NCBI GenBank assembly: GCA_019115085.1
Contig: DXEF01000047.1
Coordinates: 1 to 44,946 of the forward strand
Reading direction: 5' to 3'
Length of the DNA: 44,946 bases
Origin: Candidatus Agathobaculum pullicola
GTDB lineage: Bacteria; Bacillota; Clostridia; Oscillospirales; Butyricicoccaceae
Shown in pieces: positions 19,667 through 35,000 of this stretch. Positions within the stretch are counted from its first letter, which is position 1. Each line of letters begins with the position of its first letter. Position numbers and translations under genes: made by a program. The notes beneath the pieces are model-generated. The model saw nothing but the letters and a program-made list of their open reading frames with translations. It ran no database searches and had not been told where the DNA came from.

Positions 19667-19695
19667 TTGCATTTACACGGTATCCATGGTATACT
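19667..19695 (+). promoter_or_regulatory. Promoter of the glycosyltransferase-CsaB fusion
   Basis: TTGCAT (19667-19672), 17 bases, then an extended -10 TGG-TATACT (19687-19695). GGAGGA at 19723-19728 and the TTG start at 19736 follow. Confidence 0.6.
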
Positions 19696-19735
19696 GTCTA
19701 TATCTGTGAGAAAATGTCCTTTGGAGGAATCTGTT

Positions 19736-21985
19736 TTGCGAGTGATGCATGTGATGGGCGGCGGCGACGTGGGCGGCGCTAAGACCCAAATTATGAATAC
19801 CGTCACCGGGCTTGCCAGGCGCAATGAAGTGATGCTGATTTCCTTCCGCGCAGGCCCGTTTGCGGATGAGGCACGCGAGCGCGGCATTGATGTGCGTGTT
19901 ATCGAGCGGCACAACCCGTTCCGCGCGGCACGGGCGATGCGTGATTTGGTCGATCAGTTTCAGCCGGATATCATCCATTGTCACGGCGGCCGCGCCAACC
20001 TGATGGGGGCGATGGTGCGCCGCACGCGCCGCGTGCCGGTGCTGACGACCGTGCACTCGGACTATAAGCTGGATTATCTGGGTAACCCATTCAAGCAGCA
20101 TACCTTTGGCGCGGCCAATGCGGTGGCGCTGCGTTTTCTGGATTTCTACCAGCCCGTGGCCGACCGCATGGCGCGCACGCTCATTGAGCGCGGCTTCGAT
20201 CCAGAGCGCATCGTCAAAATTTATAATGGCATGGACTTTCATCAGCCGGAGGGCGCGTTTGACCGCGCGCAGTACCTGAAAGAGAACTACGGCGCGGAAA
20301 TCGAGGATGGTGACGTGCTGTGCGGCATCGCCGCGCGCCTGACCGCGGTCAAGGACATTGCGACGACTGTGCGCGCCTTTGCCGCAGCGCTGCAGAAGGC
20401 GCCGCAGCTGCGCCTGTTCATTGCAGGCGAGGGTGAGGATGAGGACATGCTCAAAAAACTGTGCGCACAGCTAAATGTAACTGACCGCGTGACGTTTTGC
20501 GGCTGGGTGTTGCCGGTCGAGCCGTTTTTCCGCGCCATGGATATCAATTTGCTGTCTTCGGTATCCGAGACCTTCCCGTATTCCATTCTCGAAGGCGTCT
20601 GCGCGGGCTGCGCGACCATCTGCTCGGATGTGGGCGGTATGTCAGAGCTGATTGACACGGGCGAAAACGGCTATATCTTCCCGATTGGAGATGATAAAAA
20701 GCTCAGCGAATACATGGTGCGGCTGGCAAACGACGCGGAGCTGCGCCAAACCTTTGCGCAGGCGCTGTACGAAAAGGCATCGCGCGATTTCTCAAAGGAT
20801 AAGATGTGCCAGCGGCAGGAAGCCAACTACCGCCATCTGCTGGCGCGTTTCCATCGCCCGAAGGATGAGCGCGAGAGCATCGTTATCTGTGGCGCATACG
20901 GACGCGGCAATGCGGGCGACGACGCGATTTTGGAGGCAATCGTGCAGGAGATGCGCGCGCTCGACCCGGAGCGCACGATCTGCGTTATGTCCCGCCGCCC
21001 GAAGGAGACTCGCCTGACTTACCGCACGGGTGCGGTATACACCTTTAACATCTTTTCGATCCTGCGGCGATTCCGCCGCGCGGCGCTGTATATTAACGGC
21101 GGCGGCACGCTGATGCAGGACGTGACCTCTACCCGCTCCATCTGGTATTACTGCTATACGCTGCGCGCGGCAAAAAAGCGCGGCTGCAAGGTGATGATGT
21201 ACGGCTGCGGCATCGGCCCCATCAACCGCGCGGGCAACCGTAAGATGGCGGCTAAGACGATACAGGGGTCGGTCGACCGCATCACACTGCGCGATGAAAA
21301 CTCCCGGCAGGAGCTGGCGCGTATGGGCGTGACCCGGCCGGACATCCGCGTATCCGCCGACCCGACCATTATTCTGGACGCCGCACCGTATGAGGTGGTG
21401 TCGCTGGCTATGGAGCAGAGCGGCATCGACCCGAACGGGCGCTATATCGGCTTTGGTCTGCGCAACTGGAAGGGACTGGACGCGGCGCTGCCTGCGATTG
21501 CAGCGGCGGCGGATTACGCTTATGAAAAGCATGGCCTGACGCCGGTATTTGTGCCGATTGAGTTTCCCAGCGATTTGACGCCCGCCGAGCGGGTGGGCGC
21601 GCTGCTGCACTGTCCGTGGTATGCGGTGAGAACCCGTCAGCCCATTGAGGTGACCATCGGTATTCTCGCACGAATGAAAACCGTGGTAGGTATTCGCCTT
21701 CATTCGCTGATGTTCTCGGCGGGGCAGGGCGTGCCGGTTGTCGGCATGAGCTACGATATCAAGGTGGACAGCTTTCTCAAATATATCGGCAGCAGCACCT
21801 GTTTGCAGCTGCGCGAGGTGCGCGCAGACGAGCTGTGCGGCCTGATCGATAAGTGTCTGTCCGGTGCGCTGGACGAGGAAGTGCGGCGCAACGCTAAGCT
21901 GCTGCGCGAGCGTGAACATGAAAATGTGCGCGGCGCGGCAATTCTGCTTGGCATTGAAGAAGAAAAGGAGGAGGCAGAAGAGTGA
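19736..21985 (+). CDS. csaB: Glycosyltransferase (GT4)-CsaB polysaccharide pyruvyltransferase fusion
   Basis: This bifunctional protein should both transfer a sugar and add pyruvate ketal to the secondary cell-wall polymer that anchors SLH proteins. In the 749-residue product the N-terminal GT-B glycosyltransferase (about 1-375) starts with VMHVMGGGDVGGAKTQIMN and carries the GT4 motif SSVSETFPYSILEGVCAGC. The C-terminal CsaB domain (about 380-735) has ICGAYGRGNAGDDAILEAIV, LYINGGGTLMQDVTSTRSIWYY, MYGCGIGPI, and the conserved VVGIRLHSLMFSAGQGVPVVGMSYD. CsaB is usually a separate protein of about 370 residues. The TTG at 19736 is chosen since GGAGGA is seven bases away and it yields the family-typical N-terminus; ATG at 19745 is the alternative. 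The stop overlaps the next GTG. Confidence 0.92.
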   Translation: MRVMHVMGGGDVGGAKTQIMNTVTGLARRNEVMLISFRAGPFADEARERGIDVRVIERHNPFRAARAMRDLVDQFQPDIIHCHGGRANLMGAMVRRTRRVPVLTTVHSDYKLDYLGNPFKQHTFGAANAVALRFLDFYQPVADRMARTLIERGFDPERIVKIYNGMDFHQPEGAFDRAQYLKENYGAEIEDGDVLCGIAARLTAVKDIATTVRAFAAALQKAPQLRLFIAGEGEDEDMLKKLCAQLNVTDRVTFCGWVLPVEPFFRAMDINLLSSVSETFPYSILEGVCAGCATICSDVGGMSELIDTGENGYIFPIGDDKKLSEYMVRLANDAELRQTFAQALYEKASRDFSKDKMCQRQEANYRHLLARFHRPKDERESIVICGAYGRGNAGDDAILEAIVQEMRALDPERTICVMSRRPKETRLTYRTGAVYTFNIFSILRRFRRAALYINGGGTLMQDVTSTRSIWYYCYTLRAAKKRGCKVMMYGCGIGPINRAGNRKMAAKTIQGSVDRITLRDENSRQELARMGVTRPDIRVSADPTIILDAAPYEVVSLAMEQSGIDPNGRYIGFGLRNWKGLDAALPAIAAAADYAYEKHGLTPVFVPIEFPSDLTPAERVGALLHCPWYAVRTRQPIEVTIGILARMKTVVGIRLHSLMFSAGQGVPVVGMSYDIKVDSFLKYIGSSTCLQLREVRADELCGLIDKCLSGALDEEVRRNAKLLREREHENVRGAAILLGIEEEKEEAEE

Positions 21986-23410: not shown

Positions 23411-23434
23411 TTTGTTTTTGAGGAGGAATTGCAG

Positions 23435-23926
23435 ATGAAAAAAGTTCTGGTCATCATGGGCTCGGACAGCGACCTGAAGGTGATGGAGAAGTGCATCGAC
23501 CGTTTAAAGTCGTTTGCTATCCCGACCAAAGTGCGCATTTGCTCTGCACATCGCACGCCGGCGGTGGCCGAGCAGCTGGCTAAGAACGCTAAAGAAGATG
23601 GCTTCGGCGTTATCATTGCAGCAGCGGGCAAGGCAGCCCATCTGGGCGGCGTGCTGGCGGCCAATACGACCCTGCCGGTTATCGGCGTGCCGATGGGCAC
23701 AAGCGTGATGGGCGGTATGGACAGCCTGCTGTCCATTGTGCAGATGCCCAAGGGTATTCCCGTGGCGACGGTTGCAATCGACGGCGCGGACAACGCCGCG
23801 ATTCTGGCGGCGCAGATAATTGCGCTGTCGGACGACGCGCTCGCGGACAAGCTCGCGCAGTTCAAGGCGGACATGGCAAGCGAGGTCATGGCCAAGGATG
23901 AAAAAATCAAGGCGCAGTTTGCATAA
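23435..23926 (+). CDS. purE: N5-carboxyaminoimidazole ribonucleotide mutase
   Basis: Class I PurE converts N5-CAIR to CAIR in the sixth step of IMP synthesis. The 163-residue protein shows VLVIMGSDSDLKVMEKC (phosphate and substrate loop, about residues 4-20), VRICSAHRTPAVAEQLA (the conserved SAHRTP with the catalytic His) and AAAGKAAHLGGVLAANTTLPVIGVPMGTSVMGGMDSLLSIVQMP. Class I PurE usually works with PurK, which is not in the window. AGGAGG is seven bases upstream of the ATG at 23435; the in-frame ATG at 23402 lies inside the palindrome and is rejected. It is the first gene of the purine operon, 102 bases before purC. Confidence 0.96.
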   Translation: MKKVLVIMGSDSDLKVMEKCIDRLKSFAIPTKVRICSAHRTPAVAEQLAKNAKEDGFGVIIAAAGKAAHLGGVLAANTTLPVIGVPMGTSVMGGMDSLLSIVQMPKGIPVATVAIDGADNAAILAAQIIALSDDALADKLAQFKADMASEVMAKDEKIKAQFA

Positions 23927-23997: not shown

Positions 23998-24028
23998 AAA
24001 TTACACACATAAATGGAGGAATATGGAC

Positions 24029-24739
24029 ATGGAAAAGAAAGAACAGCTCTACGAAGGCAAGGCTAAGAAGGTTTTTGCAACCGATGACGCAAATCTGGTC
24101 ATCGTGGACTACAAGGATGACGCGACTGCCTTCAATGGTGAAAAGAAGGGAACAATTGCCGGCAAGGGTGTCATCAACAATGTGATGAGCAACCATATGT
24201 TCCAGCTGCTCGAGCAGCAGGGCGTGCCGACGCATTTCGTCGAGCAGCTTTCCGACCGCGAGACCGTGGTAAAGAAGGTGTCCATCGTACCGCTTGAAGT
24301 GATCATCCGCAATATCTCGGCCGGCTCGTTTGCCAAGCGTTACGGCGTAAACGAAGGCATTGTGTTTGACGAGCCGACCATCGAATTCTCCTACAAAAAC
24401 GACGATCTGGGCGACCCGCTCATGAACGCTTATCATGCAATCGCGCTCAAACTTGCCACCCGCGAGGAGATTGAGCGCATCAAGACCATGGCTTTCAAGG
24501 TCAACGAAGTGATGAAGCAGTATTTTGATACGCTGAACGTCACACTCGTAGATTTTAAACTCGAGTTCGGCAAGACCGCGGACGGCACCATCGTGCTGGC
24601 GGACGAAATCAGCCCGGATACCTGCCGGCTGTGGGACAAGACCACGGGCGAAAAGCTGGATAAAGACCGCTTCCGCCGCGGTATGGGCGGCGTGGAAGAG
24701 GCCTATGAAGAAATCATGAAGCGCGTAATGAGTAAGTAA
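24029..24739 (+). CDS. purC: SAICAR synthetase
   Basis: PurC ligates aspartate to CAIR with ATP to give SAICAR. The 236-residue protein has the family length and motifs: [14 protein letters not shown] at the N-terminus, [40 protein letters not shown] (about residues 88-107), [46 protein letters not shown] (ATP/metal-binding Asp-Glu region). The ATG at 24029 lies eight bases from GGAGGA; an in-frame ATG at 24023 is too close to it. It sits 24 bases before purF. Confidence 0.97.
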
Positions 24740-24763: not shown

Positions 24764-26239
24764 ATGAAATATCGAATTTTAAAGCAGAGTAAAACCCCGT
24801 TTGATAAGGTGCACGAGGAGTGCGGCGTGTTTGGCATCGCCGCGCCTCCGGGCAAAGAGATTGCGGCCGCGCATGAAGCCTATGTTGCGCTGTTCGCCCT
24901 GCAGCACCGCGGGCAGGAAGCCGCGGGCATCGCGGTCAACAACCGCGGCGTTATCCGCTGCCATAAGGATGTTGGCCTGGTCAGTCAGGTGTTCAGTCAG
25001 GATATTTTGGACGGCATGCCCGGTTCGATGGCCGTCGGCCATGTCCGCTATTCGACAACGGGCAACCAGTCAAGAGAAAATGCGCAGCCGATCGCGATTA
25101 CGCATGTCAAGGGCAACCTTGCCGTGGCGCACAATGGCAATCTGGTCAACGCGGGCGAGTTGCGCCGCCGCATTGAGCTAAACGGCGGCATCTTCCGCTC
25201 CTCGAACGACACCGAGGTGCTGGTGTATACCATCGTTAATGAACGACTCAAATGCGGCAGCATTGAAGAAGCGGTCAAAAACACCATGAGCATCATCGAG
25301 GGCGCGTATTCGCTGGTTGTGATGAGTCCGCGCAAGCTGATTGCCGCGCGCGACCCACACGGGTTCCGTCCACTGTGCATTGGCCTGCTGGATGGGGCGT
25401 ATATTTTCGCCTCTGAAACCTGTGCGCTCGACGCATTGGGCGCACAGTTCGTCCGCGATGTGGAGCCGGGCGAGGTTTGTGTGGTGGAAAACGGTGAGCT
25501 GCGCTCGATGCACTGCGGCGTGCAATGCAAGAGCACGGCCTGCGTATTCGAGTATATCTACTTCGCCCGTCCGGACTCAATTATCGACGGCGCAAGCGTG
25601 GAGCTTGCCCGGCAGGAGGCTGGCAAATACCTGTCCATTGAGCACCCGGTCGGTGCGGATGTGGTCATCGGTGTGCCGGATTCCGGTATCCCTGCCGCTA
25701 TTGGCTATGCAAAATTTTCCGGTATCCCGTATGGCGTCGGACTCATCAAAAATCGTTATATCGCCCGCACGTTTATCCAGCCGGGGCAGGACAAGCGGGA
25801 GCGCTCGGTGCGGCTTAAGCTCAACGCGCTGCGCACGGCGGTAGAGGGCAAGCGCGTCATCATGGTCGATGATTCCATTGTGCGCGGCACGACCTGTGCG
25901 CGGCTGGTAAAGCTTCTGCGTGACGCGGGCGCGGCCGAGGTGCACATGCGCATCTCCGCGCCGCCGTTCCGGCATCCCTGCTTTTTCGGCACGGATATCC
26001 CGGAGCGCAGCCAGCTTTTGGCGCATGGCCGTACGGTTGAGGAAATGCGCGAGATCATCGGTGTGGACAGCTTAGGCTTCCTGTCGCTTGAGGCGGCGCG
26101 CAAAATTGCGGTCGGCTGTAAGCTCGGTTTTTGCGACGCCTGTTTCTCGGGCGAGTATCCGGTTCCCGTGCCGGAGCAGGCGGAAAAGAATATGTTTGAA
26201 AATGAAATACCGCTCGATAGGAACAAAGACAAGGAGTAA
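24764..26239 (+). CDS. purF: Amidophosphoribosyltransferase (active PurF)
   Basis: PurF makes 5-phosphoribosylamine from PRPP and glutamine, the committed purine step. The 491-residue protein has an N-terminal Ntn glutaminase with HEECGVFGIAAP: Cys20 would become the N-terminal nucleophile after removal of a 19-residue propeptide. Glutamine-site residues are in VGHVRYSTTGNQSREN, AVAHNGNLVN and SSNDTEVLVYTIV. The phosphoribosyltransferase half shows VIGVPDSGIPAAIGYAKFSGIPYG and the PRPP loop VIMVDDSIVRGTTCARLV. Cys in HCGVQCKSTAC, PPFRHPCFFG and CKLGFCDACF suit a 4Fe-4S cluster, as in the Bacillus enzyme. A second PurF-like gene begins three bases downstream. Confidence 0.97.
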   Translation: MKYRILKQSKTPFDKVHEECGVFGIAAPPGKEIAAAHEAYVALFALQHRGQEAAGIAVNNRGVIRCHKDVGLVSQVFSQDILDGMPGSMAVGHVRYSTTGNQSRENAQPIAITHVKGNLAVAHNGNLVNAGELRRRIELNGGIFRSSNDTEVLVYTIVNERLKCGSIEEAVKNTMSIIEGAYSLVVMSPRKLIAARDPHGFRPLCIGLLDGAYIFASETCALDALGAQFVRDVEPGEVCVVENGELRSMHCGVQCKSTACVFEYIYFARPDSIIDGASVELARQEAGKYLSIEHPVGADVVIGVPDSGIPAAIGYAKFSGIPYGVGLIKNRYIARTFIQPGQDKRERSVRLKLNALRTAVEGKRVIMVDDSIVRGTTCARLVKLLRDAGAAEVHMRISAPPFRHPCFFGTDIPERSQLLAHGRTVEEMREIIGVDSLGFLSLEAARKIAVGCKLGFCDACFSGEYPVPVPEQAEKNMFENEIPLDRNKDKE

Positions 26240-26242
26240 GAA

Positions 26243-27664
26243 ATGGGAGGATTTTTCGGCGTAGTCTCCAAGCAGGACTGCGTGCTGGATATTTTCTTCG
26301 GCGTGGACTATCATTCACATCTGGGTACGCGCCGCGGCGGCATGATCCTGTATGACAAAGAGCGCGGCTTTCAGCGCCAGATCCACAGCATTGAAAACAC
26401 CCCGTTCCGCACGAAATTTGAAAAAGACCTGCCGGACTTTTCCGGCTGCAGCGGCATTGGCTGCATCAGCGACACCGACCCGCAGCCTCTGCTTGTGCTC
26501 TCCCATCTCGGTCTATATGCGCTGACGACGGTCGGCATCATCAACAACGCGGAGGAGCTGGTTTCCCGGTATTTTTCCGATCATGGCCATCAGTTCATGG
26601 CAATGAGCTCGGGCAAGGTCAACTCCACCGAGCTGGCGGCGGCACTCATCAACCAGAAGGGAGATCTGGTTTCCGGAATCCTGCATGCGCAGGAGTTGAT
26701 TGACGGTTCGCTGACCGTTCTGGTGCTCACGCCGGACGGCATCATTGCCGCGCGCGACCGTCTGGGTCGGCTGCCGGTGCTGATAGGTCGGAATGAGGAT
26801 GGCAGCTGCATTTCATTTGAATCCTTTGCGTATCACAAACTCGGCTATGAGGACGCTTATGAGCTTGGGCCGCGCGAAATTGTCAAGGTGACTGAGGAAG
26901 GTTTCGAAACGCTCTCGCCTGCGGGCGAAGAGATGAAAATTTGCTCTTTCCTGTGGACGTATTACGGTTACCCCAATTCCAACTATGAAGGCGTCAATGT
27001 TGAGGTGATGCGTTACCGCAATGGCGCTATTATGGCGCAGGACGACCAGAAGCGCGGTCTTGCGGGAGATGTGGACTATATTGCAGGTGTACCGGATTCC
27101 GGTGTGCCGCACGCAATCGGCTATGCCAACGAATGTGGCAAGCCGTTTGCCCGCCCGTTTGTCAAGTATACCCCCACGTGGCCGCGCTCGTTCATGCCGA
27201 CCAACCAGAAGGTCCGCAATCAGGTTGCTAAGATGAAGCAGATTCCGGTTCCCGAACTGATCGAAGGCAAAAAGCTGCTGTTTGTGGATGATTCCATTGT
27301 GCGCGGTACACAGCTGCGTGAGACAGTTGAGTTCCTGTATGAGTCAGGCGCCAAGGAAGTGCACATGCGCTCTGCCTGTCCGCCGATTATGTACGGCTGC
27401 AAGTATCTGAACTTCTCCTCCTCCAATTCTGAGATGGAGCTGCTTGCCCGCCGCATCGTGCAGGAACTGGAAGGCGACGAAGGGGAGAAACATCTGGAGG
27501 AATATGCGGACGCCAATACCGAGCGCGGTCAGTGTATGCTGAAAACCATCTGTGAGAAGTTCGGTTTCAGCTCGCTGGGGTATCAGTCGCTTGACGGCCT
27601 TTTGGAGGCCATCGGGTTGGACCGCGACAAGGTTTGTACCTATTGCTGGAACGGTAAGGAATAG
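26243..27664 (+). CDS. PurF paralogue with inactive glutaminase domain
   Basis: The 473-residue protein aligns with PurF throughout, but its N-terminus MGGFFGVVSK has Gly2 where active PurF has the nucleophile Cys (CGVFGI). Other glutaminase residues are also gone: the Arg of VRYSTTG is replaced (LSHLGLYALTTVG), the oxyanion HNGN motif is INNAE, and the Asp of NDTE is Ser (VNSTE). The phosphoribosyltransferase half is well kept: VAGVPDSGVPHAIGYANEC and the PRPP loop LLFVDDSIVRGTQLRETV. Cys in KICSF, SACPP and YGC, and a terminal CTYC, could bind Fe-S. It follows purF by three bases. It could use free ammonia, form a hetero-oligomer with PurF, or regulate it; none is shown. Confidence 0.85.
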   Translation: MGGFFGVVSKQDCVLDIFFGVDYHSHLGTRRGGMILYDKERGFQRQIHSIENTPFRTKFEKDLPDFSGCSGIGCISDTDPQPLLVLSHLGLYALTTVGIINNAEELVSRYFSDHGHQFMAMSSGKVNSTELAAALINQKGDLVSGILHAQELIDGSLTVLVLTPDGIIAARDRLGRLPVLIGRNEDGSCISFESFAYHKLGYEDAYELGPREIVKVTEEGFETLSPAGEEMKICSFLWTYYGYPNSNYEGVNVEVMRYRNGAIMAQDDQKRGLAGDVDYIAGVPDSGVPHAIGYANECGKPFARPFVKYTPTWPRSFMPTNQKVRNQVAKMKQIPVPELIEGKKLLFVDDSIVRGTQLRETVEFLYESGAKEVHMRSACPPIMYGCKYLNFSSSNSEMELLARRIVQELEGDEGEKHLEEYADANTERGQCMLKTICEKFGFSSLGYQSLDGLLEAIGLDRDKVCTYCWNGKE

Positions 27665-27700: not shown

Positions 27701-28738
27701 ATGAGTGAGAGCCGTTCTGAAAGCTACAAGGCAGCCGGTGTGGACGTTACCGCCGGTTACGAGGCGGTTAAGCTGATGAAGCCGATGGTTGAATCGACCT
27801 TTACGAAGGGCGTGATGGGCACGCTCGGCGGCTTCGGCGGCCTGTTCCGTCCGGACTTTAAGGGCATGGCTGATCCCATTTTGGTTTCCGGCACGGACGG
27901 CGTGGGCACTAAGCTCAAGTTGGCCTTTTTGATGGATAAGCACGACACGGTCGGCATCGACTGCGTGGCGATGTGCGTCAATGACATCGCTTGCTGTGGT
28001 GCGCAGCCGCTGTTTTTCCTGGATTACATCGCGGTCGGCAAGAATCATCCGGCTAAGATTGCGCAGATGGTCTCCGGCATCGCGGAGGGCTGCCGTCAGG
28101 CAGGCTGCGCGCTAATCGGCGGCGAGACCGCCGAAATGCCCGGCTTTTATCCGGAAGATGAGTACGATATGGCAGGCTTCTCGGTCGGTATGGTCGATAA
28201 GGAGAAGATGATCGACGGCACGAATATCCGTCCGGGCGACGCGCTGATCGGCGTTGCCTCCTCGGGCGTGCACTCCAACGGTTATTCGCTGGTGCGCAAG
28301 ACGCTTGGCATCAACGAAAAGTCCGTGCGCCGCTATATTGATGAGTTTGGCAAGACGCTTGGCGAAGAGCTGCTGACTCCGACTAAGATTTATGTCAAGG
28401 CCATTCAGGGCCTCATGGGTAAGGTGGAGGTCAAGGGTATCAGCCACATCACAGGCGGCGGCTTCTATGAGAACGTGCCGCGTATGCTGCCGGACGGTAT
28501 CTGCGCCAAAATTGAAAAGAGCGCGATGCCGGTGCCGCCGGTGTTTGACCTGATTGCAAAGACCGGCAAGATTCCGGAGCGCGATATGTACAACACCTTT
28601 AACATGGGCGCAGGTCTGGTGCTCGCTGTGGCGGCAGAGGATGCGTCCCGTGCGGTGGCTGCGATTTCGGCCGCAGGCGAAAAGGCATACATCATCGGTG
28701 AGTGTGTGGCTGGTGAAAAAGGCGTCGTGCTCGAGTAA
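27701..28738 (+). CDS. purM: Phosphoribosylformylglycinamidine cyclo-ligase (AIR synthetase)
   Basis: PurM closes FGAM to AIR with ATP in the fifth step of the pathway. The 345-residue protein shows the family motifs: [14 protein letters not shown] near the start, [15 protein letters not shown] (about residues 62-76), [49 protein letters not shown] (about 133-159), [18 protein letters not shown] and [23 protein letters not shown] precedes the ATG. It is 36 bases after the PurF paralogue and 18 bases before purN. Its substrate-making enzyme PurL is not in the window. Confidence 0.97.
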
Positions 28739-28756: not shown

Positions 28757-29380
28757 ATGATGAACATCGCAGTTTTGGTTTCGGGCGGCGGCACGAATCT
28801 TCAGGCGCTGATTGACGCGCAGGCCGCAGGTCAGATCGAAAACGGCCGTATTCGGCTGGTGATTTCCTCCAATCCGGACGCATTTGCGCTGGAACGTGCG
28901 GCAAAGGCGTCCATTCCGTCCGCTGTGCTGCGCCGCCGCGACTTTGACAGTGCGGAGGACTACGGCGCGGCGCTGACTGCGCTGCTGGAGGAATACGAGA
29001 TTGGTCTGATCGTGCTCGCGGGCTTTATGACCGTGCTGCCGGACAGCTTTTGCAGCCGCTATGAAAACCGTATCATCAACGTACATCCGTCGCTGATTCC
29101 ATCCTTTTGCGGAGCGGGTTTTTATGGCCTGCGCGTGCATGAGGCTGCCCTTGCCAAAGGGGTTAAGGTGACCGGTGCAACCGTGCATTTTGTCTCAGAA
29201 GTGGTGGATGGAGGCGCAATCATTGCGCAAAAAGCGGTCGAAGTTGAGGAAGGCGATACGCCGGAGACGCTGCAGAAGCGCGTGATGCGTCAGGCCGAGT
29301 GGATTCTGCTGCCGCAGGCTGTCAGTGATTTCTGTGCGGGAAGACTTCACGTCCACGGCGCATGGGTCGCCAGAAAATAA
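28757..29380 (+). CDS. purN: Glycinamide ribonucleotide formyltransferase
   Basis: PurN transfers a formyl group from 10-formyl-THF to GAR in the third pathway step. The 207-residue protein has the expected N-terminus NIAVLVSGGGTNLQALIDA (phosphate loop) and the catalytic set: Asn and His in NVHPSLIPSF (about residues 106-115), His in GATVHFVSEVVDGGAIIAQ and Asp in that same segment. The product EIGLIVLAGFMTVLP matches the active-site strand. The ATG at 28757 follows GTGGAGAATC. It is co-transcribed with purM and the cyclohydrolase gene, 17 bases downstream. Confidence 0.96.
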   Translation: MMNIAVLVSGGGTNLQALIDAQAAGQIENGRIRLVISSNPDAFALERAAKASIPSAVLRRRDFDSAEDYGAALTALLEEYEIGLIVLAGFMTVLPDSFCSRYENRIINVHPSLIPSFCGAGFYGLRVHEAALAKGVKVTGATVHFVSEVVDGGAIIAQKAVEVEEGDTPETLQKRVMRQAEWILLPQAVSDFCAGRLHVHGAWVARK

Positions 29381-29397: not shown

Positions 29398-30123
29398 ATG
29401 AGCAAGAATGTGTTCGATATCAGCAATGAGCTGATAAGCAATGCCTATCCGGGACGCGGCATCATTTTTGGCCGCACACAGGATAATAAGCAGAACGTAG
29501 TGGCCTATTTTATCATGGGCCGTTCGGAGAACAGCCGCAACCGTGTATTTGTAAAGACCGATGACGGCATCCGGACCGAGGCCTACGACCCGTCCAAGAT
29601 GACCGATCCCTCGCTCATCATTTATCATCCGGTGCGTCAGTGCGGCGGCAAGCTGGTTGTCACCAACGGCGATCAGACCGATACGATTTGTGAATATCTC
29701 AAAGCAGGGAAAAGCTATATCGATGCGCTGCGTACCCGTCAGTTTGAGCCGGACGCTCCCAACTATACTTCGCGCATCTCGGGCGTCGTCAACGAGGACG
29801 GTTCCTACAGCCTGTCCATCCTCAAGAATTTCACGTCCGACCGTACCTCCAACAAGCGCTTTTTCTATGAATATGACAAGCCGGTGCCGGGTCTGGGGCA
29901 TTTTATTCACACCTATCAGTGCGACGGTGACCCACTGCCGCCGTTCCGCGGTGAGCCAAAGTGCATTCGGATTGAAAAACCGATAGAGCAATTCACCGAA
30001 ATGCTCTGGTCGAGCATGAACGAGCAGAACAAGGTCGCTCTGTTTGTGCGCTATATCGATCTGGAAACCGGCGCATACCGTCAGGAGATCCGCAACAAGC
30101 ACGAGGAGGGCAAGGACGCATGA
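29398..30123 (+). CDS. purO: IMP cyclohydrolase, PurO-type
   Basis: This enzyme would close FAICAR to IMP, the last step, replacing the N-terminal MGS-like domain of ordinary bifunctional PurH. The 241-residue protein matches the IMP_cyclohyd (PurO-like) family: SNAYPGRGIIFGRTQDNKQ, VVAYFIMGRSENSRNRVF, IIYHPVRQCGGKLVVTNGDQTDTI, FEPDAPNYTSRISGVV and GLGHFIHTYQCDG. PurO was first described in archaea and is found alongside a stand-alone AICAR formyltransferase in many Clostridia. Here that partner begins in the overlapping ATGA at 30120-30123, strong support for the pairing. GGAGGAAGGA precedes the ATG. Confidence 0.88.
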   Translation: MSKNVFDISNELISNAYPGRGIIFGRTQDNKQNVVAYFIMGRSENSRNRVFVKTDDGIRTEAYDPSKMTDPSLIIYHPVRQCGGKLVVTNGDQTDTICEYLKAGKSYIDALRTRQFEPDAPNYTSRISGVVNEDGSYSLSILKNFTSDRTSNKRFFYEYDKPVPGLGHFIHTYQCDGDPLPPFRGEPKCIRIEKPIEQFTEMLWSSMNEQNKVALFVRYIDLETGAYRQEIRNKHEEGKDA

Positions 30124-31295
30124 AAGAGCTGGCACTCAAATACGGCTGCAACCCTAATCAGAAGCCCGCGCGCATTTTCATGACCGAGGGCGAGCTGCCT
30201 ATCGAAGTATTAAACGGTAAGCCGGGCTATATCAACTTTTGTGACGCATTTAATTCATGGCAGTTGGTAAAAGCGCTCAAAAAAGCGACCGGTATGCCGG
30301 CGGCGGCGTCCTTCAAGCATGTGTCGCCTGCGGGCGCAGCGCTTGGAAAGCCGCTGACCGAGGTCGAGAAGCAGATGTACTTCGTCGAGGCCGACCATGA
30401 GCTGTCGCCCGTCGCATGCGCCTATATCCGCGCGCGCGGCGCGGGCCGCCTGTGCTCATACGGCGACTGGGCGGCGCTCTCCGACGTGTGCGACGCGGAT
30501 ACTGCATCCTACCTCGCGCATGAGGTGTCCGACGGCATCATCGCGCCGGGTTACACGGATGAGGCGCTCAAAATTCTGAAAACCAAGCGCAAAGGCAGCT
30601 ATAATGTGGTTCAGATCGATCCGGACTATGTGCCCAAGCCGATCGAGCAGCGCGATATTTTCGGTATCCGTTTCGAGCAAGGCTATAACGATTATGAGAT
30701 CAGAGAAGCGCTGCTGAACGATATCGTCACCAATAACAAGGAGCTGCCTGATAGCGCTAAGCACGACATGATCCTGTCGCTGATTACGCTCAAGTACACC
30801 CAGTCCAACTCGGTTTGCTATGTCAAGGACGGCATGACCATTGGTGTCGGCGCAGGCCAGCAGAGCCGTATCCATTGCACGCGACTGGCAGGCAGCAAGG
30901 CGGACAATTGGTTTCTGCGGCAGCATCCCAAGGTGCTCGGCCTGCAGTTTGTGGATGGCATCCGCCGTCCCGACCGTGACAATGCGATTGACGTATACAT
31001 TTCGGATGAGTACGAGGATGTGCTGGCGGATGGTGTCTGGCAGAATACCTTTAAGGTTAAGCCCGAGGCGCTCACGGCTGAGGAAAAGAAGGCATGGATT
31101 GCGAAGAACACGGGCGTGACCGTTGGTTCGGATGCGTTCTTCCCGTTTGGCGACAATGTCGAGCGTGCGCGTAAGTCAGGCGTGCAGTATATCGTGCAGC
31201 CGGGCGGATCGATTCGGGATGACAACGTCATTGAGACGGCGAACAAATATGGTATTGTCATGGCGTTTACCGGCATGCGCCTGTTCCACCATTGA
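30120..31295 (+). CDS. purH: Stand-alone AICAR formyltransferase
   Basis: It transfers formyl from 10-formyl-THF to AICAR giving FAICAR, the penultimate step of IMP synthesis. The 391-residue product corresponds only to the C-terminal AICAR transformylase half of bifunctional PurH (about 520 residues); the MGS-like cyclohydrolase half is absent, its job taken by the PurO-type gene just upstream. Motifs: LKYGCNPNQKPARIF, PGYINFCDAFNSWQLV, AAASFKHVSPAGAALG with the catalytic Lys-His, SNSVCYVKDGMTIGVGAGQQSRIHCTRLAG, SDAFFPFGDNVERARKSGVQYIVQPGGSIRDD and MAFTGMRLFHH at the end. The name purV has been used for this stand-alone form; I keep purH because it aligns with that half. Confidence 0.93.
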   Translation: MKELALKYGCNPNQKPARIFMTEGELPIEVLNGKPGYINFCDAFNSWQLVKALKKATGMPAAASFKHVSPAGAALGKPLTEVEKQMYFVEADHELSPVACAYIRARGAGRLCSYGDWAALSDVCDADTASYLAHEVSDGIIAPGYTDEALKILKTKRKGSYNVVQIDPDYVPKPIEQRDIFGIRFEQGYNDYEIREALLNDIVTNNKELPDSAKHDMILSLITLKYTQSNSVCYVKDGMTIGVGAGQQSRIHCTRLAGSKADNWFLRQHPKVLGLQFVDGIRRPDRDNAIDVYISDEYEDVLADGVWQNTFKVKPEALTAEEKKAWIAKNTGVTVGSDAFFPFGDNVERARKSGVQYIVQPGGSIRDDNVIETANKYGIVMAFTGMRLFHH

Positions 31296-31879: not shown

Positions 31880-32415
31880 AGCTAATTCGCGGCTATTATG
31901 CCTATCTTGCCATCGCCGGGGGACTGCTGCTCAGTCTGGTTTTGCAGAACAACTGGATGCTGCAGATTGTGGCCTATGCGCTGATTTCTGCGGGCGCACT
32001 GTCCTTGCAGCAGGTATCGCGCTGGTTTTTGCGCGCAAGCATCGCAGCTGATGTGTGTATCGGCTTTGAAGTGGTCTGCGGGCCGGCTGTGGTGCCGCCG
32101 GGATTGTTTCGCATGGTGCTGAAATATGCTTCGCTTGTGCCGCTGTTGATGGTCGGCTGCATGTTGCTGATGGCGTTTATGGCGCAGATGCGGGACGCAG
32201 GGCGCGGAACAGGCATCGAATGGGTGATTTTTGTTGTATGGAGCGCGGGATTCATCCTGACGCTGCTTATGGCGCCCGGCTGGCTCAACGACATGGCGCT
32301 GTCGCTGACCGTGACCGCAGTCAATACCCTGACGGTGCTGGGGTACATTGCGTTGCTGGCAGACACATTCCGCGCGCAGAAAGAATACATCCGTACGGAG
32401 GGAGAAAAACCATGA
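31876..32415 (+). CDS. Second membrane protein of unknown function in the purine operon
   Basis: The 179-residue product has hydrophobic segments at about 8-22, 25-45, 80-97 (ASLVPLLMVGCMLLMAFM), 108-128 (EWVIFVVWSAGFILTLLM) and 134-158, i.e. about five helices, with a charged C-terminal tail (AQKEYIRTEGEKP). No family recognised. It overlaps the previous gene by ATGA and purD by ATGA as well, so it is translated within the purine polycistron. It resembles its neighbour in size and topology but no clear sequence identity is visible, so they need not be paralogues. A structural pair within one membrane complex is the simplest guess. Confidence 0.68.
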   Translation: MKLIRGYYAYLAIAGGLLLSLVLQNNWMLQIVAYALISAGALSLQQVSRWFLRASIAADVCIGFEVVCGPAVVPPGLFRMVLKYASLVPLLMVGCMLLMAFMAQMRDAGRGTGIEWVIFVVWSAGFILTLLMAPGWLNDMALSLTVTAVNTLTVLGYIALLADTFRAQKEYIRTEGEKP

Positions 32416-33668
32416 AAGTACTGGTTATCGGCGGCGGCGGGCGAGAGCACGCCATCGTTCATACACTGAAGAAAAGCTCCAAGGTCGACCATATCTGGTG
32501 TGCACCGGGCAACGGCGGCATCGCGCAGGAAGCAGAGTGCGTGGACATTCAGGCAACTGATATTGACGGCGTGGTGGCCTTTGCCAAGGAGCACAAGCCT
32601 GACCTTGTGATGGTCGCGCCGGACGATCCGCTGGCACTCGGTATGGTGGACGCGCTCGAGGAAGCGGGTATCCGTGCCTTTGGCCCGCGTAAGAATGCGG
32701 CTGTGATTGAGGGCTCCAAGTCCTTTGCCAAGGAACTGATGAAGAAATACGGTATTCCAACCGCAGGCTATGCCGTGTTTGAGGATTCGGCGGCAGCGAT
32801 TGCGTATATCAAGGAGCAGGGCGCGCCGATTGTCGTTAAGGCGGACGGTCTGGCGCTCGGCAAGGGTGTCACGGTCGCTATGACCGAGGATGAGGCTGTT
32901 GCAGCGGTTAAAGATGCAATCGACGGCGGCGCGTTTGGCGGCGCGGGTGCGCGCGTCGTCATTGAAGAGTTCCTGACCGGTCCGGAGGTTTCCGTGCTGG
33001 CGTTTGTGGACGGCAAGCATCTCAAGACCATGCCGTCGGCGCAAGATCATAAGCGTGCCTACGACCACGATGAGGGGCCGAATACAGGCGGCATGGGCGC
33101 GTTCTCGCCCTCGCGGTTCTACACCGAGGATGTGGCTGACACCTGTATAGAGACGATTTTTAAGCCCACGGTCGAAGCGATGGCGGCGGAAGGCCGCCCC
33201 TTCAAAGGCGTGCTGTACTTTGGTCTGATGCTGACCCCCAAGGGCCCCAAGGTGATTGAGTACAATGCGCGCTTTGGCGACCCGGAGACGCAGGCGGTAC
33301 TGTCCCGGCTGGAAACCGATCTGTTTGATATTTTCAACGCTGTTATCGACGAAAAACTGGATGAAATCGACATCCGGTGGTCGGATAACGCGGCTTGCTG
33401 CGTATGTATGGCATCGGGCGGCTATCCAAAGGCCTACGAGAAGGGCAAGGTCATCACCGGTTTGGATGATGTGACCGATTCGTTTGTGTTTCATGCAGGC
33501 ACAGCGGTTAAGGACGGTGTATTTGTCACCAGCGGCGGCCGTGTGCTTGGCGTGACCGCGACAGCCCCGACACTGGATGAGGCAATCGTCAAAGCATATG
33601 CGGACGTCAAGAAGATTCATTTTGAAAAAGCGCATTACCGTACGGATATTGGAGTGAAAAAGGGATGA
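32412..33668 (+). CDS. purD: Phosphoribosylamine-glycine ligase (GAR synthetase)
   Basis: PurD joins glycine to 5-phosphoribosylamine, the unstable PurF product, with ATP. The 418-residue ATP-grasp protein has KVLVIGGGGREHAIVHTL (about residues 2-19), PDLVMVAPDDPLALGMVD, FGPRKNAAVIEGSKSFAKELM, PIVVKADGLALGKGVTVAMT, EEFLTGPEVSVLAFVDGK, DHDEGPNTGGMGAFSPS and YNARFGDPETQAVL. The ATG at 32412 overlaps the upstream membrane-protein stop (ATGA); an in-frame region further upstream belongs to that gene's other frame and is ignored. The stop overlaps the YbjN-like gene start by four bases. Confidence 0.97.
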   Translation: MKVLVIGGGGREHAIVHTLKKSSKVDHIWCAPGNGGIAQEAECVDIQATDIDGVVAFAKEHKPDLVMVAPDDPLALGMVDALEEAGIRAFGPRKNAAVIEGSKSFAKELMKKYGIPTAGYAVFEDSAAAIAYIKEQGAPIVVKADGLALGKGVTVAMTEDEAVAAVKDAIDGGAFGGAGARVVIEEFLTGPEVSVLAFVDGKHLKTMPSAQDHKRAYDHDEGPNTGGMGAFSPSRFYTEDVADTCIETIFKPTVEAMAAEGRPFKGVLYFGLMLTPKGPKVIEYNARFGDPETQAVLSRLETDLFDIFNAVIDEKLDEIDIRWSDNAACCVCMASGGYPKAYEKGKVITGLDDVTDSFVFHAGTAVKDGVFVTSGGRVLGVTATAPTLDEAIVKAYADVKKIHFEKAHYRTDIGVKKG

Positions 33669-34264: not shown

Positions 34265-34871
34265 TTATTGAGCGATTTCATTTTTATCGACTTCAAGCAG
34301 AATAGCGCTGAACTTTGTAAGGGTAACGGTAAAAATATCGGGGTCTTGGCCCCATGAAGGATGGTTTTCTTTGAATTGTCCGCCGAAATGCGCCCAGTCA
34401 GTGTTCGGCAGGATTGCCGCGTTGGGCAGGGGAGCAGAAAAGTATACGGCTTATCCGAGAAGTTGCAGACTGCGACCAGATGCTCGCCTGCGCGGCGGGA
34501 ATGGATGAAATTGCAGCTTCCCCACTCGCTTTCCCCCACATCGGGTCGGTGATGACCGAGCAGCAGCCCGGACGCAGTTCCATAGCAAAGCCATAAGGGT
34601 CGCAGTGCTCAACCACCATGCCGCTGTGGGAGGTAATGCGGTACTTGTAGTACTGCCCGGCATGGGCGTTCGGCAGGGAGACCTCCCAGAAACCGCTGCG
34701 GCCATCCTGTGTCAGTTCGTTTTCTTTCCAGTCGTTAAACGCGCCTGTAAGCGTGATTTTGGCGGCATTTGGTGCAAAAACCCGAAAAATGGTCGATTGC
34801 TCTTTGATGTGGGCGCCGAACCAGCGCCATGCGTCGAATACGGTTCCGTCAAAAAAATCCTGCTTGTCCAT
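34265..34871 (-). pseudogene. glgB: 1,4-alpha-glucan branching enzyme remnant (N- and C-terminal parts)
   Basis: From the ATG at 34869-34871 (preceded by GGAGGGGAG) the frame reads the CBM48 domain of GlgB: FDGTVFDAWRWFGAHI, STIFRVFAPNAAKITLTGAFNDW, and CDPYGFAMELRPGCCSVITDP. The catalytic GH13 barrel, some 400 or more residues, is missing. The sequence goes directly to a GlgB C-terminal all-beta domain in other frames: HSRRAGEHLVAVCNFSDKPY (with a frameshift), then YFSAPLPNAAILPNTDWAHFGG, QFKENHPSWGQDPDIFTVTL, and EVDKNEIAQ to a stop at 34265-34267. No active enzyme can result. Loss of glgB suggests glycogen-branching capacity was lost or lies elsewhere. No other glycogen gene is in the window. 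Confidence 0.8.
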
Positions 34872-34971
34872 GAGACTCCCCTCCCGGCACTGTTTGCAGT
34901 ATAGTAACAGTATAGGGGATGGGTTGATAAAACACAACCGCCAAACCAAGGGGGATTTGTTTAATATTTTT

Positions 34972-35000
34972 TGAACCAAATTACCCGGAAACGGCTCTTA
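34972..35000 (+). promoter_or_regulatory. Candidate ECF promoter, distal copy
   Basis: TGAACC, 16 bases, GCTCTTA (34994-35000). The flanking GAACCAAA and GGCTCTTA are identical to those of the second copy at 35040, with 12 variable bases between; the start-to-start distance is 68 bases. The likely activator is the ECF sigma encoded just downstream. Confidence 0.5.

Follow-up and report, generated by a model that had tools for sequence, protein, structure and literature searches.

A glutaminase-dead relative of PurF in gut bacteria that may start purine synthesis from free ammonia

PurF, the glutamine PRPP amidotransferase, catalyses the committed step of purine synthesis, which is under feedback control and is taken to be driven by glutamine. 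Ammonia and glutamine versions of one and the same step are spread among bacteria, as in the case of AsnA/AsnB or of NH3- versus glutamine-dependent NadE, and the ammonia forms of these types have no glutaminase domain. CPS I, on the other hand, keeps a glutaminase domain without its nucleophile and is a proven user of free ammonia. For PurF itself, the available text of one paper states that the E. coli enzyme deprived of its Cys loses the use of glutamine and still uses ammonia (PMC3261824, citing Mei and Zalkin 1989). The same text by Brown et al. (2011) presents crenarchaeal PurF', a Cys-less PurF paralogue encoded near purF and other pur genes, and raises an ammonia-dependent role as one possibility (PMC3261824). 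Among open-licence PMC papers, no description was found of a bacterial family such as the one treated here, which we call PurF2, or of PurF replacement by such a protein, and the available part of one review (PMC10912719) makes no mention of an ammonia-driven PurF.

The window analysed is a stretch of 44,946 nucleotides from Candidatus Agathobaculum pullicola (assembly GCA_019115085.1, contig DXEF01000047.1, positions 1 to 44,946, forward strand). In it, purF2 encodes a full-length PurF relative and begins three bases past the end of purF, within a run of operon-like order formed by purE, purC, purF, purF2, purM, purN, a purO-like gene and a stand-alone AICAR formyltransferase gene, with purD after two more open reading frames (Table 1). 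The last two genes of the run (29398-31295) take the place of purH. Both are present in 35 of 80 PurF2 stretches (best 80 of 593 relatives), so that a dependence of PurF2 on this pair is not general; in two loci (L049, L062) the AICAR formyltransferase of the window finds a weak match of 27-28% only, over most of its length. Elsewhere in the window, a 772-aa frame at 19667-21985 fuses a glycosyltransferase (PF13439/PF00534) with a polysaccharide pyruvyl transferase domain (PF04230), and a frame on the minus strand at 34398-34979 encodes the N-terminal region of a glycogen branching enzyme (GlgB_N, CBM_48); it comes to an end at 193 aa, which points to a possible truncation or frameshift of the gene. 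An Rfam search of the window at gathering cut-offs gave no match.

Table 1. Purine genes and residue-level features of PurF2, with their positions in the window.
Feature	Positions	Strand	Basis
purE	23432..23926	+	PF00731 AIR carboxylase, E 4e-62
purC	24023..24739	+	PF01259 SAICAR synthetase, E 2e-90
purF, canonical glutamine PRPP amidotransferase	24764..26239	+	TIGR01134, 517 bits, cut-off 350
AAGGAG, likely purF2 ribosome-binding site, within purF 3' end	26231..26236	+	sequence
purF2, glutaminase-dead PurF-family protein, 473 aa	26243..27664	+	residue alignments; purifying selection in both domains
Gly2 codon, place of the catalytic N-terminal Cys	26246..26248	+	alignment
IGCISDTDPQP, shortened stretch at the glutamine loop (IGHVRYATAGGGGYENVQP in B. 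subtilis); Arg, Tyr lost	26456..26488	+	alignment
Thr96-Val97-Gly98, replacing the His-Asn-Gly oxyanion motif	26528..26536	+	alignment
Ser123 at the position of glutamine-site Asp127	26609..26611	+	alignment
Cys234, putative Fe-S ligand position (B. subtilis Cys236)	26942..26944	+	alignment
GVPDSG, pyrophosphate loop, kept	27086..27103	+	alignment
Flexible loop, Lys308 (KYTPTWPRSFMP) to Lys332; Lys, Arg, Phe, Gln, Arg, Lys kept	27164..27238	+	alignment
VDDSIVRGTQ, predicted PRPP-binding loop	27284..27313	+	DDSIVRGT invariant
Cys386, putative Fe-S ligand position (Cys382)	27398..27400	+	alignment
CTYC (Cys465, Cys468), putative Fe-S ligand positions (Cys437, Cys440)	27635..27646	+	alignment
purM	27701..28738	+	PF02769 + PF00586, AIR synthase domains
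purN	28757..29380	+	TIGR00639, 211 bits, cut-off 150
purO-like IMP cyclohydrolase	29398..30123	+	PF07826, E 4e-61; below TIGR01922 cut-off
Stand-alone AICAR formyltransferase	30120..31295	+	NF005492 (PRK07106), 710 bits, cut-off 415
purD	32412..33668	+	PF01071, PF02844, PF02843, GAR synthetase domains

PurF2 matches B. subtilis PurF (1ao0) over residues 3-410 with an E value of 3e-42, far beyond chance, and scores 173 bits on TIGR01134 (purF), below the curated cut-off of 350, compared with 517 for the neighbouring PurF. The main alignment, in B. subtilis numbering, comprised 22 canonical PurF proteins and 68 PurF2 proteins, these being the window protein and 67 of the best 80 of 593 relatives, a set biased to close relatives. 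Five of the 25 loci L112-L136 did not enter the canonical set: L130-L132 because the Cys pattern missed them, though L131 reads EECAVFG, and L135 and L136 because they have no open frame of the requested length. The initial annotation had read an intact PurF, with Cys20 in HEECGVFGI plus VRYSTTG, HNGN and NDTE, all of which are seen in the upstream gene, HNGN as part of AHNGN. It had further described a paralogue that starts with MGGFFGVV, has lost the Arg, the HNGN and the Asp and has kept VDDSIVRGTQ and the Fe-S cysteines, and the comparison of 68 with 22 proteins confirms this description. Its prediction that glutamine hydrolysis would be lost and PRPP binding kept is well supported by residue conservation.

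The comparison with the glutaminase residues of B. subtilis PurF, proposed at that time as a check, gives the same losses throughout the 68 proteins. The site of the catalytic Cys1 is occupied by Gly in 67 of them and by Ala in one, and there is no propeptide. Arg72 of the glutamine site has become Ser in 68/68, with Tyr73, Thr75 and Gly77 deleted in every case; His101 is replaced by Thr in 65/68 and is His in none; Asn102 has changed to Val, Ile or Thr in all; and the site of Asp127 holds Ser in 63/68 and Asp in a single protein. Moreover, the glutamine loop has lost about 8 residues relative to canonical PurF. Position 2 is Ser in 5 of the 56 tree members, scattered and in no single clade, and these members have lost the remaining glutamine-site residues as well. 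The dead domain has invariant residues of its own in the alignment, namely S25, L27, T29, S76 and D77. Follow-up alignments placed Met1, and not Gly2, opposite the Cys, and there is no Cys there either way. A hidden upstream start restoring a Cys, which had been named as a refuting test, is impossible: the codons preceding the purF2 ATG in its frame are AAG GAG TAA GAA, and this TAA, the stop of purF, lies in frame two codons ahead of the start. A catalytic Cys elsewhere, also checked by alignment, is rejected too: the nearby Cys13 is unconserved, several members having Val or Ala there, and the rest of the glutamine site is lost in any case.

The transferase domain gives the opposite picture of retention. 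The PRPP loop D345-T352 (DDSIVRGT) is kept in 68/68 PurF2 proteins, and the same holds for the four cysteines (236, 382, 437, 440) that would ligate an Fe-S cluster of the B. subtilis type. In the pyrophosphate loop, Pro-Asp is kept in all 68 and the Ser in 67, with Thr in the remaining one. The flexible loop of PurF serves catalysis, and its K305, R311, F313, Q318, R321 and K328 are kept in 68/68 PurF2, while Asn306, Tyr308 and Ile314 are changed; in the window protein, the loop differs from that of PurF by the changed Tyr and Ile and by one inserted residue. Loci were obtained for 30 of the 37 genomes that have PurF2 as their only PurF-like protein (see below), of which eight were missed by the N-terminus pattern; seven of these were added later, and L168 was not. 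The same split between lost and kept residues is found in the 22 further PurF2 of these PurF-less genomes, with the listed kept positions (six of them in the PRPP loop) present in 22/22, in the seven others, and in four PurF2 from Bacteroidota, Peptoclostridium and a phage-labelled contig. As regards membership in the glutamine PRPP amidotransferases, PurF2 lacks the N-terminal Cys and the glutamine site, lies below the TIGR01134 cut-off and has the PRPP and Fe-S features; therefore, we do not file it as a canonical PurF.

Among 21 genus members, the dead domain of PurF2 has a median dN/dS of 0.076 and its transferase domain one of 0.052; in 19 canonical PurF taken from the loci of these members, the glutaminase domain gives 0.104 and the transferase domain 0.052. 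Thus, the dead glutaminase domain is under purifying selection, and a purF2 pseudogene is excluded. A tree built from 56 PurF2 and 22 PurF proteins splits the two groups by a single branch with 100/100 support that is by far the longest, and places the PurF of Bacillota and Coriobacteriia together on the PurF side. This excludes a recent tandem duplication of purF: PurF2 is a deep, separate family, and the pair in the window is the meeting of two old families. The term tandem paralogue used in the initial annotation is then right for the position in this genome and does not hold for the origin. The order purF2 then purF occurs in five other loci (L037, L042, L048, L052, L053). Coriobacteriia loci among the best 80 of 593 relatives are 70-76% identical to the Bacillota PurF2 of the window, and the ten Coriobacteriia PurF2 of the tree group in a single clade (99/92) nested among those of Bacillota, which suggests transfer between phyla. 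A PurF2 of 77% in a MAG labelled Sutterella (Pseudomonadota; L071) also falls among Bacillota PurF2 in the tree, either by transfer or by contamination of the MAG. Spread on phages or plasmids was considered and rejected: the four matches in the plasmid collection, at 51-56%, lie on an 809-kb Peptoclostridium plasmid and on plasmid-labelled Bacteroidota records, and the sole phage-labelled match (65%) is an unverified faecal contig of 12.9 kb.

The distribution was surveyed in 198 genomes of one gut-bacterial order, for which 97% completeness was asked for (G000 has 82%), with thresholds of E<=1e-70 for PurF2 and E<=1e-60 for PurF. PurF2 is found in 114 genomes and PurF in 153: 77 have both, 37 PurF2 only, 76 PurF only and 8, identified by elimination, neither. 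PurF2 is commoner without PurF (37/45) than with it (77/153; Fisher p 1.3e-4). The PurF2-only genomes have purM in 36/37 and purL over the cut-off in 36/37, whereas the genomes with neither protein have purM in 0/8 and purL over the cut-off in 0/8, with a partial match in one (G105; Fisher p 4e-8 for each gene). A TIGR01134 search over the cut-off matched none of the 37 PurF2-only genomes, compared with 13 of 14 control genomes, and 36 or more purF losses in 198 genomes by a per-genome gene miss of 3% would have a p of about 5e-18. As no single-contig assembly is listed among the 37, some could have a purF hidden in gaps. Where PurF2-only genomes have purM (36), no more than 600 bp separate it from PurF2 in 28 cases, and in the other 8 the two genes are not neighbours. 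In G253, G156 and G117, from two families, PurF2 and the pur cluster are on different contigs. The single exception to the co-occurrence is G094, PurF2-only with no purM or purL match. Its PurF2 adjoins sfsA (PF03749; L187:8004-10156), and a frame resembling sfsA likewise adjoins PurF2 in G156 (L185).

A second sample consisted of 80 PurF2 loci from named records, the best 80 of 593 relatives and thus biased to close relatives, in which some stretches end at contig edges. PurF2 is beside pur genes in 55 of these 80 loci, 46 without purF in the stretch and 9 with it, so the earlier argument that tandem placement speaks for a function tied to PurF finds no support. The other 25 loci have no pur gene beside PurF2, and 20 of them are Coriobacteriia by title. 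When 50 of the 80 loci were checked in their whole genomes, canonical PurF was found in 25 (counting one contig-edge fragment and one weak match of 42%) and was not found in the other 25, of which 24 have purM over the cut-off. In a sample of 60 genomes from the family of the Adlercreutzia locus, PurF2 is present in 41, and 33 of these have PurF too; the remaining 8 give a single match, and TIGR01134, run on seven of them, found none over the cut-off. In the phylum sample PurF2 is uncommon (20/299 genomes), and outside the order PurF is also present in all 16 genomes with PurF2.

We think it likely that PurF2 functions as a PRPP aminotransferase and uses PRPP and free ammonia to form 5-phosphoribosylamine (PRA), the precursor with which purine synthesis begins. 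The shortened glutamine loop would leave the path to the PRPP site open for ammonia. Where both proteins are present, as in the window, PurF may work with glutamine at low ammonia and PurF2 may take over at high ammonia. No PurF-independent route had met the purine need in PRA, according to the available part of PMC3485032, so pathway genomes without PurF need some PRA-forming enzyme; PurF2, judged by its residues, is a candidate with the right place and the right active site. Of the three roles that the initial annotation had proposed, the acceptance of free ammonia agrees best with the data: in many genomes retaining purM and purL, no PurF-like protein other than PurF2 was found. A mixed PurF/PurF2 oligomer is ruled out as a general role by the 37 genomes, out of 114 with PurF2 in the order, that gave no PurF match. 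Evidence against our reading comes from the presence of PurF in the other 77 of 114, in 33 of 41 PurF2 genomes of the Adlercreutzia-family sample and in all 16 sampled outside the order, as well as from G094 and from the loci at which PurF2 is away from purM or from all pur genes.

PurF2 might instead make PRA with ammonia or amide supplied by a separate partner, either another glutaminase or an enzyme that releases ammonia, which would dock on its remodelled N-terminal domain. The new invariant residues and the low dN/dS of the dead domain are what one would expect of a binding surface. Outside the pur operon, PurF2 is followed by pepT and gcvT in Bacteroidota (L196:8001-11904; L197:6001-9783) and by pepT in Peptoclostridium acidaminophilum (L195:9001-11800), so that pepT beside PurF2 is a neighbourhood common to several phyla; the glycine cleavage system releases ammonia, and gcvT would be consistent with such a partner. 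However, pepT is near PurF2 in 3 of 131 loci searched and gcvT in 2, all three being the Bacteroidota and Peptoclostridium loci; many of the 131 have short flanks only. Moreover, G173, a PurF2-only genome of 1.2 Mb that is 99% complete, has the compact row purE-purC-purF2-purM-purN-purO-AICARFT-SHMT-purD-purL, in which the serine hydroxymethyltransferase gene (SHMT) is the one extra member and an inspection frame by frame found no added glutaminase gene. We regard a docked partner, which might also be encoded at another place in the genome, as unlikely. The off-operon and PurF-accompanied PurF2 may reflect an older accessory role, and some lineages would then have come to rely on the protein as their only such enzyme. 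In Rubneribacter badeniensis, direct repeats spaced 65-66 nt, with varying sequence in between, lie about 2.5 kb beyond purF2 (L084:13900-16400) and are probably a CRISPR array.

A non-catalytic PurF2, acting as a sensor of PRPP or nucleotides or as a regulatory partner of PurF, would agree with the retained PRPP loop and Fe-S cysteines, with the position beside purF in the window and in 9/80 loci (best 80 of 593), and with the 16/16 PurF2 genomes sampled outside the order that have PurF. Nevertheless, there is no PurF to regulate in 37/114 genomes of the order, 36 of these 37 keep purM and purL, and the six flexible-loop residues from K305 to K328 listed above are invariant, which makes this role quite improbable in our opinion. 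Very improbable, too, is that PurF2 transfers the phosphoribosyl group to another amine and that PurF2-only genomes obtain PRA otherwise, for example from ribose-5-phosphate and ammonia. Chemistry forming PRA independently of PurF does exist in Salmonella, as the text available from PMC3485032 reports, G094 keeps PurF2 without purM or purL, and in some lineages PurF2 is not located near pur genes; but those routes never gave enough PRA for the purine need (PMC3485032, same text), and purM adjoins PurF2 in 28/36 PurF2-only genomes. A decaying or dispensable duplicate, for which the lost glutaminase site could speak, has a negligible probability and is as a general statement already refuted by selection (medians of 0.076 and 0.052 in the 21 genus members) and co-occurrence, besides the 70-76% identity of the Coriobacteriia loci (best 80 of 593) to the Bacillota protein and the 100/100 branch of which PurF2 forms one side.

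Beyond the ammonia-fed activity itself, we put forward tentatively the possibility that part of this gut-bacterial order and some Eggerthellaceae start their purines from free ammonia through PurF2, with PurF displaced, and that the nearly invariant pocket (Ser-His-Leu-Gly-Thr, Ser-Asp) is now an ammonium-selecting or regulatory domain. Ammonia is plentiful in the colon. For Eggerthella lenta, the available text of PMC10234575 reports the production of inosine and hypoxanthine, with a medium stock of amino acids and uracil in which guanine was detected as a likely contaminant; this phenotype is not counted as evidence here. If the dead domain selects ammonium or regulates, purine synthesis would follow gut ammonia rather than glutamine. 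If PurF2 carries out the PurF step without a glutaminase and as the sole enzyme of otherwise present pathways, nitrogen control of purine synthesis in gut anaerobes would have to be modelled differently, and apparent purF gaps in the metabolic reconstructions of these organisms would be explained. In that case, glutamine analogues directed at PurF should leave PurF2 uninhibited, and the 2011 suggestion of an ammonia-dependent PurF' would become directly testable in bacterial genes.

Compared with canonical PurF (EC 2.4.2.14; B. subtilis 1gph/1ao0, E. coli 1ecb), PurF2 is alike in full-length homology and in its place in the pur operon, and both have the PRPP and pyrophosphate loops, the flexible-loop Lys/Arg and the four Fe-S cysteines. 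It differs in the missing N-terminal Cys, propeptide and glutamine-site Arg, His-Asn and Asp, in the shorter glutamine loop (by about 8 residues) and in some 27 extra residues inserted ahead of the final two Fe-S cysteines. The nearest precedent, compared by description, is archaeal PurF': like it, PurF2 is Cys-less and lies near pur genes (55/80 loci, best 80 of 593), whereas crenarchaeal PurF' always occurs with PurF in the species studied, according to the available text (PMC3261824), and PurF2 occurs without PurF in 37/114 genomes of the order. Unlike the ammonia forms AsnA and NH3-dependent NadE, PurF2 has retained and remodelled its glutaminase domain. The nearest functional model, by analogy, is ammonia-dependent CPS I, in which the glutaminase domain is likewise kept without its nucleophile; fold and pathway are unrelated, and the ammonia use that is proven for CPS I is, for PurF2, predicted from its sequence.
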